Virus record (IMG/VR): IMGVR_UViG_3300009550_000053
Span: 1 to 27,841 of that record
Origin: a virus
DNA: 27,841 nucleotides
Strand: one strand, 5' to 3'
A model generated the notes under the pieces. The model was not told the origin of the DNA and ran no database searches. It saw nothing but the letters and a program-made list of their open reading frames with translations. Made by a program: the position numbers and the translations under genes. Shown piece after piece: positions 928-6,240 of this stretch (positions are counted from its first letter, which is position 1; each line of letters opens with the position of its first letter).

Positions 928-2586
928 AGTAGTGTAATAAGATGTTGAACCTGAATTAGCAACAATAGAACCAACTTCTCCACCACCAACAGTTCTTTCA
1001 AAAGCTAAAGCCTTATAACCCGTTCCAACTTCTCCAACAAAATTACCATGACCATTAGCAGTAGCACTTCCACTGTATGCTTGTCTGCCTAAATGATTTA
1101 TACGCAATCTTTCTGTAAATGCTGTACCTGTACAAAAATATATAGACCCTGCTTGTAATTCCATTGTAGCTGAAGCACTTGTTGCTCCATAATTATTTCT
1201 TATAGTAAACTTAGTAAAACCGCTATTATCATGATGTAAAATACTATTTACAATTCTTATTTGACTATCATCACCAGATAATTCTAAAACTTTTCCGACT
1301 GAAGAACCAGTTAAACCTAATTTTGCAGGACTAGTCGTTCCAATTCCAACATTTCCTGCCCCATCAATTGTCATTCTAGCAACACCAGCATTAGTATGGA
1401 AAGTTAAATCTCTATCTGCATTATAACTCATTCCACCATCATAAGCATCAGTGTTATTTGCAAGGGCTCTAGAAAAATAATATCCACCATTATTTGCACC
1501 ATTATATAATGCCATACCACCTGCACCACCTGCACCAACAACTAACATATTAGCATTAGCATGGTTATTTGATGGGCTAGTATTACCTATACCAACTTTT
1601 CCATTATGGTCAATAACCATTCTATGTTGTGTATCTTTATCATCATAAAAATAAAGTTTATCATCACCAGAACCAATGGACCATTTTGTAGGTACTGATG
1701 TAGAAAATAAATTAAGTACTGCGTAATTAGTTCCTTCAACTGTTAACTGTCTTGAACTACTTCCCCAATCAGCGTTGTAAGGAGAGTTTGTTCCAATTCC
1801 AACGTGGCCTGAAGAAATAATACGCATTCTTTCTAAATTACCGTAATTTGAAAATCTTAAAGAATCATCAGAATGGTCATATCCTATTAAGCCTTGAGAC
1901 CTTGTGCCATCTGAAAACATTATTAAAGCTTGATTAGAAGCAGGAGTTCTTATATCAATAGCTATAGAGTCATTATTTTCTAAAATTAATCTATCTGCAC
2001 CATCAGGAGTATAAGATGAACCTGAATCACCTCCGTATACATGTAATACACCTTCAGGACTACTCGTTCCAATTCCAACTTTGCCTGATGAGTCTATTGC
2101 GACTTTTACAGTACCACCACTATTTTTAAATGTATAATTAGTTGCTCTAAATCCCATTGCTCCCCAAGCAGAACCTGGATTATTATATGCACCAATCTGT
2201 CCCACAACATCAAGGTTGCCAGCAATTTGCATATGAGAAGCTGCTGTGACTATACCTGATGTGACTTGTAAACCATGTGACATTACAAATCTGTCATTTG
2301 CTGCAGACCAATTTAGTGTTGCATCGGTTGAACCATCAATAGCATCTTGTATTGTAATACCTGCTCCATCAACAGCACTTGAAGTATCATTGGATGCGTG
2401 GTAATTTAAAACAATATTTTTATCTGCCACTTGTAAAGTAGTAGCATCTAATGTGACGGTACTACCATTAACTGTAAGGTTTCCACTTAATGTAAGATTT
2501 GTTAATGAACCGGCACCAGCTGCAGTGATACGTTCTGTACCAGCTACGCTTAAACCATGTTTTACTTCGAAATTTTTATTTGCCAT
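571..2586 (-). CDS. Tail fibre with VGIGT repeats and C-terminal S74 chaperone
   Basis: This protein has 671 residues. After a short N-terminus it carries the module LTLSGNLTVNGSTVTLDATT and DAIDGSTDATLNWSAANDRF (about 29-106), a near copy of one in the upstream 1199-residue fibre. Four 'VGIG-x-x-SP' repeats follow (170, 262, 331, 413), each closing a beta segment such as MRIISSGHVGIGTNSP; this is a well-known fibre repeat. The C-terminal 118 residues are a Peptidase_S74 chaperone: SDYRLKENV with Ser554 and Lys559 at the catalytic spacing, VDGFLAHEVSSIVPEAI, and a terminal helix LVKTIQELEARL. It should therefore trimerise and self-cleave. A late promoter box lies 32 nt before the ATG, overlapping the stop of the upstream gene. 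GGAG is found before the start at a longish distance. Confidence 0.9.
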   Translation of the reverse strand: MANKNFEVKHGLSVAGTERITAAGAGSLTNLTLSGNLTVNGSTVTLDATTLQVADKNIVLNYHASNDTSSAVDGAGITIQDAIDGSTDATLNWSAANDRFVMSHGLQVTSGIVTAASHMQIAGNLDVVGQIGAYNNPGSAWGAMGFRATNYTFKNSGGTVKVAIDSSGKVGIGTSSPEGVLHVYGGDSGSSYTPDGADRLILENNDSIAIDIRTPASNQALIMFSDGTRSQGLIGYDHSDDSLRFSNYGNLERMRIISSGHVGIGTNSPYNADWGSSSRQLTVEGTNYAVLNLFSTSVPTKWSIGSGDDKLYFYDDKDTQHRMVIDHNGKVGIGNTSPSNNHANANMLVVGAGGAGGMALYNGANNGGYYFSRALANNTDAYDGGMSYNADRDLTFHTNAGVARMTIDGAGNVGIGTTSPAKLGLTGSSVGKVLELSGDDSQIRIVNSILHHDNSGFTKFTIRNNYGATSASATMELQAGSIYFCTGTAFTERLRINHLGRQAYSGSATANGHGNFVGEVGTGYKALAFERTVGGGEVGSIVANSGSTSYYTTSDYRLKENVDYTWDATARLKQLKPARFNFIADDTNTLVDGFLAHEVSSIVPEAIYGEKDGMADPILYEDGDEIPEGKSVGDVKTESVPEYQAIDNSKLVPLLVKTIQELEARLTAGGL
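2269..2502 (-). repeat. Shared SGNLTV fibre module, copy in the 671-aa fibre
   Basis: Partner of 4976-5209. Shorter relatives of the first half occur at 6879-6992 (496-residue fibre) and about 10083-10192 (1205-residue fibre). Confidence 0.8.
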
Positions 2587-2617
2587 TTACGTTTTCACTC
2601 TCCAACGTTTATTATTC

Positions 2618-2625
2618 TATTTATA
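2618..2625 (-). promoter_or_regulatory. T4-type late promoter box upstream of the 671-aa fibre
   Basis: Exact TATAAATA on the minus strand, containing the TAA stop of the 1199-residue fibre. The predicted start near 2612 gives a leader of 26 nt with GGAG in it. Confidence 0.65.
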
Positions 2626-5600
2626 CAGGTATTGCCGTTGAAACAACCCTCGCAGTTAAACTACTATTACTTCCTGGTGTGACTTGTAATAATATATTAC
2701 CACCTGAAATTGTAGCACTTAATGTGCCGAGTGCAGCATTATCGAATAATGTACCATACTCTGTGATATAAACTGTAGTACCATCATGTATTAAACTAAC
2801 TTCTGTTGAATGGTAATCAGTTCCTTGTGTTAATTGAACTATATATTTAATTGTTCTGTATGTATTACTCGAATGTGTTGCAATTGTTGTTGCACTTGTT
2901 GAGGTCATTGTGGTTGATGTGACAGCTGAACCTTGTACAGTTGTATCATCAAACATTGCAATTGTGTTAATTGAATCGGTGGCCGGTTGATTTATTTCTG
3001 AAACAGTTGGTGTTATTATTTCTATACTATGTCCACTTGGTACATCAGTATCGAATGTTAAAGTTGTACCACTTACAGAATATGTTGCTTTTTCTTGATA
3101 TACACCATCTAAATATACGAAGGTATTATTTTCCGATATTGGATTAACCGACATTGTATAAGCTGCCGTGCTACCATTTCCAGTAAATGCATCAACATTC
3201 ATAGCTTGCCCAGCAATACCTTTACCCATTGTGTGTATTACTACTTCAGTACCTGATGCTGGAGCACTATCTAAAGTGACTGTATTTCCACTTAATGTAT
3301 ATGAATTTTTATTTTGATATACACCTTCTAAAAACACGATTAAACTATCTTCACTTGAAGGTGTTTGACTTAATGTAAAATCTGTAGTTGTCGCGTTTGC
3401 TGTGGTGGCTAAGTCAGTTGTAAAAGGTGTGACTGAGCTTGAACCCGTGAGAGTGACAGTATCTGTTCCTGCGGTTGTGGTGATATCAATACCACCTGCT
3501 CCTACAAGAGTCAGAGTATCAGTGACCTGGTCGGCGGCAACGGTTGTTTGGCCACTTACAGCTATATTACCAAATGAATTACCTCCAGTACTACTATTCG
3601 TAACTGTTATTTCATCTGAACTTGCATTAGTTGTTAGTGTAATACCTGTTCCTGCCACTAGGGTTAGTGTGTCTGAAGTCGAGTCAGCACTTACTGTACT
3701 TTGTCCACTCACAGCAATGTTAGCGAAGGCGTTATCTCCAGCGGTTCCCCAACTTAAGTTTCCACTACCGTCGGTTTTTAATGCTTGGCCACTAGAGCCA
3801 TCGGCGTTGGGTAATACCCATATTTGGTCGCCTGATAATGCAGGTGCCTCAAACCCTACAAAATTAGAACCCTCATAGAATCTTAATTCATTTGCTGAAC
3901 CATCCAATGAGAGATGTCCACTTACATTAAGTGTACCATTTAAATCTGTATCACCATTTACTGTTAAACCAGTTGCATCATCAATGGTGACATTTCTATT
4001 ACCTATGACAACTTCTATTAAAGCGCCACTAGGTGGTGTATTACCTGAACCAAATGTTAATGTTGAACCACTAACACTATACTTATCTTTGGCTTGATAT
4101 ACACCATCAATATAAACTTGTGTATTATTTTCGTGATTTGGATTTACTCCAAGAGCAACTGTATTTGTTGAACCATCACCAGTATCTGTCACAACTGAAC
4201 TATCGCCAAATCCTAAAACTTGTACAAATGCTTCAACTTGTAGTTTATCACCAGTAGTTGCGCCATTTACTAAAACAATTGTTGTTCCATTAGTTGCGGT
4301 AAAGTCAGTAGTTGGTACTAATTTAATACCATTTAATAAAACTGAAACAGCACCTGCAGTATATGCTAATGTATTTCCATTTGCATCTGAACCTGAGAAT
4401 GATGTTTGACCAGATGTCGCAGTAAATAAAAATTCTGAATATACTCCGCTTTGCCCACTTCCACTTCCTGAAATAGTGATGGTTTTTGTAGCTCCGGTAC
4501 CTGATGCTGTGACTCCAGCACCTACAAAGTTTAATGTTGAACCTGCTGTTGATAAAGCTGAACCTTCATCTTGAATTGTAAGTGCACCACCGGATACTGT
4601 GATAGTTTTTGTTGCGCCTGAGCCAGATGCCGTAACGCCTGAACCGACAAAGTTTAGAGTAGTAGCTGCAGTTGATAATGATGAACCTTCTTCTTGGACT
4701 GTTATTGATGAACCACCAGCTGCGGCAATAGTGACTGAATCTGCTGATGCATCAGTTGTAAGTGTAATATTAGAACCAGCAACTAAAGTTAATGTATCAC
4801 TATTAGAATCTGCTGCTACGTTTGATTGTCCACTTACTGCTATTGTTCCAAATGCATTTCCTCCAGCCGATATAGAACTAAATGATAAATTACCACTACC
4901 ATCTGTGACTAAAGCTTGTCCACTTGAGCCATCACTTGATGGATATGTTAATGAAGCAATTGTTGCACCAGGAGCTGTGATTGCATGTGAAAAATCAAAC
5001 TCATCATCCGATGCATCCCATAATAGTGTAGCATCAGTTGAAGCATTAACAGCATCTTGAATTGTAAGACCAGCTCCATTTGCTGAACCTGATGTATCGC
5101 CTGAGCCTTTATTAACTGTTATGTTTTTATCTTCTACATCAAGAGTGGCTGTATTTAAAGTAGTAGTTGTACCACTTACAGTTAAATTTCCTGAAACAGT
5201 TAAATCGTTAAATGTGACATCACTTGAAGAACCAACCGCTTGGCCTATATTAATAACACCACTTCCAGTAATTGTGACTCCAGTTCCACCTGTTAAATGT
5301 GCTAATACTTCTGCTTGGCTTGGCCCTGTATATGTTATAACACCGGTTGAACTATTATAAGCTAATGAACCATCACCACCTGCATCAGTGACCGATATAG
5401 CTCCTCTAGCATCTGAATCTGCGTATTGTGTTATTGATGTAGATATTGCACCATTTGATATACCTATACCAGTTCCTGCAGAAAAATGAGCTCTTACTTC
5501 AGATGCACTAGGACCGGTATATGTAAAAACACCAGTACTACTATTATACGCAAGGGAACCATCCCCACCTGCGTCCGTGGCGGATACGGACCCACGCGCG

Positions 5601-6220
5601 CGTGCCTGAGTAAAATATTGATTTGTTCCTTCGGATAAATCTGCTGTATCAAATCCAGTTAAATTACGAGTATTGAAACTAGCTTTATTACCCATATATC
5701 CATGTGCTGAACATTGGTAATATAAACACATAGGTGTTGATTCTGTTGGAACAATTTGTGTGTATGCTCCTGATGAACCAGGTGTACCGTTTGTTGTGAC
5801 ACCGGCAGTATATGAAGTTGTTTTATCTGCTTCGTAATAGAATCTTAATGGATGACCTGAGTTTGAACTATCTGATTGGTCAAATCTATATGTATTACCA
5901 GGTACCAACATTAAGTGTGGTGATTGAACGCCATCAATATGATATCCTGAACTTGAACCTGAACCATGATAAGCATGGTCTGAATTTTTTGCTACAACTT
6001 TTACTTCAAAGGAAAGGGTTTGACTTTTTCTTATTTTAAAATATGAATCAGTAGCTGAACCAACTTGAAATACTTCACTATTAGAACCTTCAGTACTTTT
6101 AGCATAAAGTTTACCATCATAGGTATTTAGTGCTAATTCACCAAGGTCTAAATTACTTGTTGTTGGTATGGCACCTGCGGTAGCAGAACGCCTTAATTTA
6201 ATATTTGTATTTCTTGCCAA
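2621..6220 (-). CDS. Multi-domain tail fibre with cupredoxin-like domain (TTG start)
   Basis: This 1199-residue fibre is a chain of modules. The attachment N-terminus (residues 1-55, LDLGELALNTYDGKLYAK) is followed by a cupredoxin-like domain (60-183) with His123, Cys170, His173 and Met176. Then come two copies of a VTDAGGDGSLAYNSSTG module (211-262, 275-326) and the shared SGNLTVSGTTTTLNTATLDV module (338-415). Two PSSDGSSGQAL/TDGSGNL linkers, three IAVSGQ repeats and two 'LNFVGxGVTASG' repeats follow. Three modules carry Gly-Val-Tyr-Gln loops (706, 966, 1039). The C-terminal domain (1118-1199) begins YRTIKYIVQLTQGTDYHSTE, a type widespread in marine fibres. The start is TTG (6218-6220), supported by AGGAG six nt upstream and by the protein family's usual N-terminus starting exactly here. 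Base composition is uneven within the gene, pointing to recombination. Confidence 0.88.
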   Translation of the reverse strand: MARNTNIKLRRSATAGAIPTTSNLDLGELALNTYDGKLYAKSTEGSNSEVFQVGSATDSYFKIRKSQTLSFEVKVVAKNSDHAYHGSGSSSGYHIDGVQSPHLMLVPGNTYRFDQSDSSNSGHPLRFYYEADKTTSYTAGVTTNGTPGSSGAYTQIVPTESTPMCLYYQCSAHGYMGNKASFNTRNLTGFDTADLSEGTNQYFTQARARGSVSATDAGGDGSLAYNSSTGVFTYTGPSASEVRAHFSAGTGIGISNGAISTSITQYADSDARGAISVTDAGGDGSLAYNSSTGVITYTGPSQAEVLAHLTGGTGVTITGSGVINIGQAVGSSSDVTFNDLTVSGNLTVSGTTTTLNTATLDVEDKNITVNKGSGDTSGSANGAGLTIQDAVNASTDATLLWDASDDEFDFSHAITAPGATIASLTYPSSDGSSGQALVTDGSGNLSFSSISAGGNAFGTIAVSGQSNVAADSNSDTLTLVAGSNITLTTDASADSVTIAAAGGSSITVQEEGSSLSTAATTLNFVGSGVTASGSGATKTITVSGGALTIQDEGSALSTAGSTLNFVGAGVTASGTGATKTITISGSGSGQSGVYSEFLFTATSGQTSFSGSDANGNTLAYTAGAVSVLLNGIKLVPTTDFTATNGTTIVLVNGATTGDKLQVEAFVQVLGFGDSSVVTDTGDGSTNTVALGVNPNHENNTQVYIDGVYQAKDKYSVSGSTLTFGSGNTPPSGALIEVVIGNRNVTIDDATGLTVNGDTDLNGTLNVSGHLSLDGSANELRFYEGSNFVGFEAPALSGDQIWVLPNADGSSGQALKTDGSGNLSWGTAGDNAFANIAVSGQSTVSADSTSDTLTLVAGTGITLTTNASSDEITVTNSSTGGNSFGNIAVSGQTTVAADQVTDTLTLVGAGGIDITTTAGTDTVTLTGSSSVTPFTTDLATTANATTTDFTLSQTPSSEDSLIVFLEGVYQNKNSYTLSGNTVTLDSAPASGTEVVIHTMGKGIAGQAMNVDAFTGNGSTAAYTMSVNPISENNTFVYLDGVYQEKATYSVSGTTLTFDTDVPSGHSIEIITPTVSEINQPATDSINTIAMFDDTTVQGSAVTSTTMTSTSATTIATHSSNTYRTIKYIVQLTQGTDYHSTEVSLIHDGTTVYITEYGTLFDNAALGTLSATISGGNILLQVTPGSNSSLTARVVSTAIPV
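3011..4126 (-). repeat. Three GVYQ loop modules
   Basis: Segments at 3998-4126, 3227-3346 and 3011-3127 encode (V/L)-x-(L/I)-(E/D)-GVYQ, x-K-x-x-Y-(S/T)-(V/L)-SG, T-(L/V)-T, then P-x-G-x-x-(I/V)-(E/V). They are separated by other modules. Confidence 0.75.
3443..3736 (-). repeat. Two adjacent IAVSGQ modules (third copy at 4721-4861)
   Basis: Residues 829-874 and 880-926 of the 1199-residue fibre share F-(A/G)-NIAVSGQ, then V-x-AD, DTLTLV and a G-I-x-(L/I)-TT end. A third copy is at residues 454-500. Confidence 0.78.
4463..4708 (-). repeat. Two tandem LNFVGxGVTASG modules
   Basis: Residues 505-545 and 547-586 of the 1199-residue fibre are near-identical: I-x-V/I-Q-(E/D)-EGS-(S/A)-LSTA, then TLNFVG-(S/A)-GVTASG and ATKTIT-(V/I)-SG. 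Confidence 0.8.
4976..5209 (-). repeat. Shared SGNLTV fibre module, copy in the 1199-aa fibre
   Basis: Residues about 338-415 match residues about 29-106 of the 671-residue fibre (2269-2502): SGNLTV-(S/N)-G, TTL-x-x-TL-x-V-x-DKNI, DGAG/NGAG, TIQDA and STDATL-x-W. Confidence 0.8.
5243..5590 (-). repeat. Two tandem VTDAGGDGSLAYNSSTG modules
   Basis: Copies at 5435-5590 and 5243-5398 encode residues 211-262 and 275-326 of the 1199-residue fibre. Both read S-V-(S/T)-x-x-DAGGDGSLAYNSSTGV, then TYTGPS and EV-x-AH. The codons of the first copy are much more GC-rich than those of the second. Confidence 0.8.
5672..6043 (-). other. Cupredoxin-like domain in tail fibre
   Basis: Residues about 60-183 of the 1199-residue fibre. 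The pattern of a small copper protein is present: a strand with LVPGNTYRF, then GHPLRF with His123, and a C-terminal loop LYYQCSAHGYMG giving Cys170, His173 and Met176. This matches the order His...Cys-x2-His-xn-Met of type 1 copper sites, though the last spacing is shorter than in plastocyanin. Copper binding is inferred. Confidence 0.65.
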
Positions 6221-6240
6221 TTTTGGCTCCTCTTTTCAAT

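Follow-up and report, generated by a model that had tools for sequence, protein, structure and literature searches.

A tail fiber protein of a marine T4-like phage carries a domain with the predicted fold and all four metal-binding residues of blue copper proteins, and the domain was also found in fibers and baseplate proteins of hundreds of other ocean phages. The analyzed window is the whole 27,841-nucleotide stretch of DNA representing the IMG/VR virus record IMGVR_UViG_3300009550_000053. The domain most likely binds one copper ion and stabilizes a module located close to the fiber-baseplate joint, although no metal has been measured, and we estimate the probability of this interpretation at about 0.55. 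The domain was so far listed only as tail fiber or structural protein.

The tail fiber gene and its cupredoxin-like domain

The gene-length open reading frames of the window lie on the minus strand and read as a T4-like tail block comprising the gp5-like hub, gp25, gp6, gp8, a large DUF4815 protein, and fibers with S74 chaperone ends. The nearest named relatives of its gp6 are those of Methylophilales phage Melnitz and Pelagibacter phages Mosig and HTVC008M (38%–41% identity). The gp5-like hub is only 204 aa long and matched only the first part of the gp5 families, so the lysozyme part is missing or located elsewhere. The fiber gene encodes a protein of 1,199 aa and starts at TTG preceded by AGGAG. 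This start is real, since the same AGGAG ribosome binding site and TTG recur in nine homologous loci. The coordinates of the features are listed in Table 1.

Table 1. Features of the analyzed window
Feature	Coordinates	Strand	Supporting data
Tail fiber gene, 1,199 aa, TTG start	2621-6220	-	Open reading frame; match to PHROG phrog_30742 over the cupredoxin domain (E 9e-53); located in a T4-like baseplate/fiber gene block
Cupredoxin-like domain, residues 60-185	5666-6043	-	Homologues; AlphaFold2; Foldseek; profile-profile match to blue copper proteins
Codon of His123, first predicted copper ligand	5852-5854	-	Invariant in the close family; aligned with the ligand His of Copper-bind proteins
Codon of Cys170, predicted thiolate ligand, end of a strand	5711-5713	-	Alignment of the close family; AlphaFold2; profile alignment; only conserved Cys column of the family
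Codon of His173, predicted ligand	5702-5704	-	Alignment of the close family; profile alignment
Codon of Met176, predicted axial ligand	5693-5695	-	Alignment of the close family; profile alignment
N-terminal segment (LRRSATAGAIPTTSNLDLGELALNTYDGKLYAK), probable virion attachment segment	6098-6220	-	Conserved upstream of the domain in the closest homologues; attachment role inferred
AGGAG ribosome binding site, 6 bases before the TTG start	6227-6231	-	Sequence; same AGGAG...TTG in homologous loci
TTG start behind AGGAG	6218-6231		Non-ATG start conserved in homologous loci
Best of three DUF4183 matches in the fiber, residues 940-996	3233-3403	-	Pfam PF13799 (E 1.8e-9)
gp5-like hub, 204 aa	25510-26124		Matches to the first part of the gp5 families

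The preliminary description, which recognized a cupredoxin-like domain with a His, Cys, His, and Met ligand set, was supported. The motifs LVPGNTYRF, GHPLRF, and LYYQCSAHGYMG named in it are present, while the domain defined by homology is 6 bases longer than proposed. The description also suggested that the Cys-x2-His-x2-Met spacing, being shorter than in plastocyanin, could reflect an altered site. However, this spacing need not mean an altered site, since it appears to be that of amicyanin, versus C-x2-H-x4-M in plastocyanin. A chance occurrence was rejected because the composition of the protein predicts only 0.0002 C-x2-H-x2-M motifs per 1,199 aa and the ligands are invariant in the close family (75 of 75 sequences for H123 and C170, and 74 of 74 scorable ones for H173 and M176). 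The fiber also has three matches to DUF4183, a domain of unknown function.

Predicted fold

An alignment of the window domain with 71 homologues from IMG/VR (49%–88% identity) yielded an AlphaFold2 model of eight strands with a mean pLDDT of 92.6 and a pTM of 0.85. In the model, where residue numbers equal protein numbers minus 56, strand 109-114 ends at Cys170 (114), His173 (117) and Met176 (120) lie in the loop before strand 122-125, and His123 (67) is located just before strand 69-72, which is the layout of a cupredoxin. A Foldseek search against the PDB revealed eight matches with E below 1e-3, all of them rusticyanin, followed by small laccases, nitrite reductase, McoA, bilirubin oxidase, and pseudoazurin. 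About 47 of the top 50 matches were cupredoxin-fold entries, including 2ux6, a pseudoazurin carrying the amicyanin loop, and a plain Ig-like repeat was therefore rejected for the window domain. The TM-scores to solved cupredoxins were modest (about 0.45–0.52), so this is a distant member with its own loops. A second, independent model, obtained for the gp9-type copy, was less decisive: amicyanin, plastocyanin, rusticyanin, and nitrite reductase appeared among its matches about equally with Ig-like folds, none at E below 1e-3. Predicted beta-sandwich proteins of pithovirus- and marseillevirus-like giant viruses (BFVD entries A0A481Z6J5, A0A481Z7Q7, and A0A481YWX9) also matched the window model.

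Sequence relationship to blue copper proteins

Single sequences did not reach any Pfam or NCBIfam cut-off for cupredoxin families, and a direct sequence search of the PDB with the window domain gave one chance hit. The relationship became evident at the level of profiles. The hhalign comparison of the wide family with 45 Copper-bind (PF00127) domains taken from bacterial genomes gave a probability of 94.1% and a score of 41.5, with His, Cys, His, and Met aligned to the four copper ligands. Sixty column shuffles reached at most a probability of 0.4% and a score of 10.9, and the reversed profile scored 11.6. With the four ligands masked the score was still 19.9, although this match was short (18 columns), so the similarity is mostly, but not only, due to the ligands. 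The best PDB hit of the profile, below significance (E 0.49), was pseudoazurin at the ligand loop. The only NCBIfam hits of a gp9-type copy, also weak, were amicyanin and halocyanin. Some homologues, but not the window domain, had Pfam hits to PF25489 At5g54830 (best E 0.00068) and SpaA_3 (0.00015). The At5g54830 matches that could be placed overlap the ligand-loop region, and that family may itself be related.

Conservation and loss of the ligands

Over all fetched loci, clustered at 90% identity, 154 of 165 complete copies contained all four ligands, while seven had lost all four, three had lost three, and one had lost two. Such near all-or-none loss, with the fold kept, argues for a real metal site and is the strongest evidence that the site is used. 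The corresponding statistics (Fisher p 4e-15) ignore relatedness, and about five independent losses are behind it. Viral loci were fetched through short peptide patterns, one of the six in most scans containing ligands, but the genome scan, performed with one pattern without any ligand, gave the same picture. Exactly one Cys was present in 286 of 322 copies, and there was a single conserved Cys column, which excludes a conserved disulfide or an iron-sulfur site.

Copies without ligands keep part of the core, such as YRFD and YYY. They were found in a fiber family of cyanophage ACG-2014b, in the free-standing ORF080 of siphophage P-SS2 (positions 3992-4330 of locus L227), in a first repeat in gp7 of P-HM2 and MED4-213, and as one of two copies in giant Flavobacteria proteins, where the other copy keeps the site. 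The fold therefore does not seem to need these residues. P-SS2 ORF080, listed only as a T4-like hypothetical protein, was detected in purified virions by mass spectrometry in 2009, with 9 peptides on average (PMC2784084). This shows that the domain family reaches the virion, although that copy lacks the ligands.

Distribution of the domain

The window domain was found by tblastn in 159 of 50,697 phage records, and the named hosts include marine bacteria (Synechococcus, Prochlorococcus, Pelagibacter, and Methylophilales). A diverged form ends the gp9-like baseplate wedge tail fiber connector of cyanomyoviruses (354 records) and recurs in the next gene (T4-GC 399). The 20 copies read in this set of records, mostly of these two genes, are only 20%–36% identical to the window but all keep the four ligands. 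The connector of Syn9 begins like T4 gp10 and gp9 and ends in this domain. An S-BM3 protein annotated as peptidase S8 (positions 1622-5306 of locus L300) contains two copies with full ligand sets. In the closest homologues of the window, the domain follows the N-terminal LRRS...GELALNT.DGKLY segment at a fixed place, while in others it is located in the middle or near the end of fibers with unrelated N-termini. It is thus a module that has been moved among tail proteins. Nearly the same 2,377-aa fiber-like protein was found in contigs labelled Prochlorococcus and Euryarchaeota, which are probably phage contigs filed under cells. The domain also occurs, rarely, in some Bacteroidota and Alphaproteobacteria (6 of 247 and 3 of 240 genomes sampled, respectively), partly in CHRD proteins that look exported.

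Possible role of the domain

The ligand set suggests a mononuclear type 1 copper site of the amicyanin loop type, located just behind the N-terminal segment that probably attaches the fiber to the baseplate. Most likely, the fold is made without metal in the host cytoplasm, where free copper is probably very low and metal loading is unlikely, and one copper ion is taken up at or after lysis. Uptake at lysis or from sea water is possible because type 1 sites appear to bind copper very tightly. The bound metal would lock a loop-rich beta sandwich serving as a joint or docking module of the adsorption apparatus outside the cell. The identity of the metal, the time of its loading, and its structural rather than redox role are inferred. 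A structural role is suggested by the absence of a redox partner in the block, the use of a ligand-less relative in a virion, and the placement of the domain near the fiber-baseplate joint here and in the gp9-like connector. It rests on position alone, however. In other phages the domain is in the middle or at the C-terminus of the fiber, and ligand-less members in virions mean that the module can work without metal in some phages.

Alternatively, the site could hold Zn or another ion as a purely structural clamp, since phage proteins fold in the cytoplasm and type 1 sites made there are expected to accept Zn. This appears unlikely because the Met ligand and the exact order and spacing are copper-type features, while structural zinc sites usually seem to employ only Cys, His, or Asp. 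Slightly less likely is a redox-active site cycling between Cu(I) and Cu(II) and acting as a switch or electron carrier at the cell surface, so that adsorption or sheath contraction responds to the redox state. A complete type 1 ligand set would normally be an electron-transfer site, and it is conserved down to 20%–36% identity, but no partner redox protein or second cofactor was seen in the block, and a ligand-less relative is used in a virion too. It is likewise improbable that marine T4-like phages carry tens of blue copper centers per virion at the fiber-baseplate joint, and that the presence or redox state of copper gates adsorption or contraction, making it a metal or redox sensor in a phage tail. 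Docking of the metal-loaded domain on a host surface protein that handles copper, a copper version of the Trojan-horse idea published for iron-binding HxH motifs in phage fibers (PMC11705849), is doubtful because here the domain is near the N-terminus of the fiber, it is present in the gp9-like connector and not only at tips, and the hosts are very different. Finally, retention of these residues only for packing of the loop, without metal, is consistent with ligand-less copies keeping the fold signature but is the least likely, since packing residues would be expected to drift one by one.

Comparison with known systems

The fold and the site are known, but a virion tail protein as their carrier was not found in the searched papers, which were limited to open-licence publications. 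Rusticyanin (PDB 1e30, 1a8z, 1rcy, and 2cak), the best structural match of the predicted domain, is a blue copper cupredoxin with His, Cys, His, and Met ligands, but it is apparently a free periplasmic electron carrier with a longer ligand loop (C-x4-H-x4-M) and has only about 14% identity to the phage domain. Amicyanin (TIGR02657) probably shares the C-x2-H-x2-M loop spacing, and amicyanins were among the matches of the gp9-type model. However, no TIGR02657 hit was obtained for the fiber, and a gp9-type copy scored only 14.6 bits (E 0.032) against the cut-off of 110.2 bits. Amicyanin itself is a periplasmic partner of methylamine dehydrogenase without a phage link. For the Copper-bind family PF00127 (plastocyanin, pseudoazurin, and others), the four ligands aligned at the profile level, but the gathering cut-off was not reached by the fiber or by any of 72 homologues, and the phage domain has extra loops. 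PHROG phrog_30742 (tail fiber protein) and phrog_677 (baseplate wedge tail fiber protein connector; E 4.7e-10) contain this domain but are annotated by position only, with no cupredoxin or metal named. Metal sites in phage fibers are known in T4 gp37 and in the fiber of Alteromonas phage R22Y (PMC11705849), where iron is bound between paired His (HxH) without a cupredoxin fold, Cys, or Met, while no HxH motif is present in the window domain. In Bacteroidota, proteins with CHRD domains that look exported carry the same domain with H, C, H, and M, several with lipoprotein or signal-like N-termini, but these proteins are cellular and rare.
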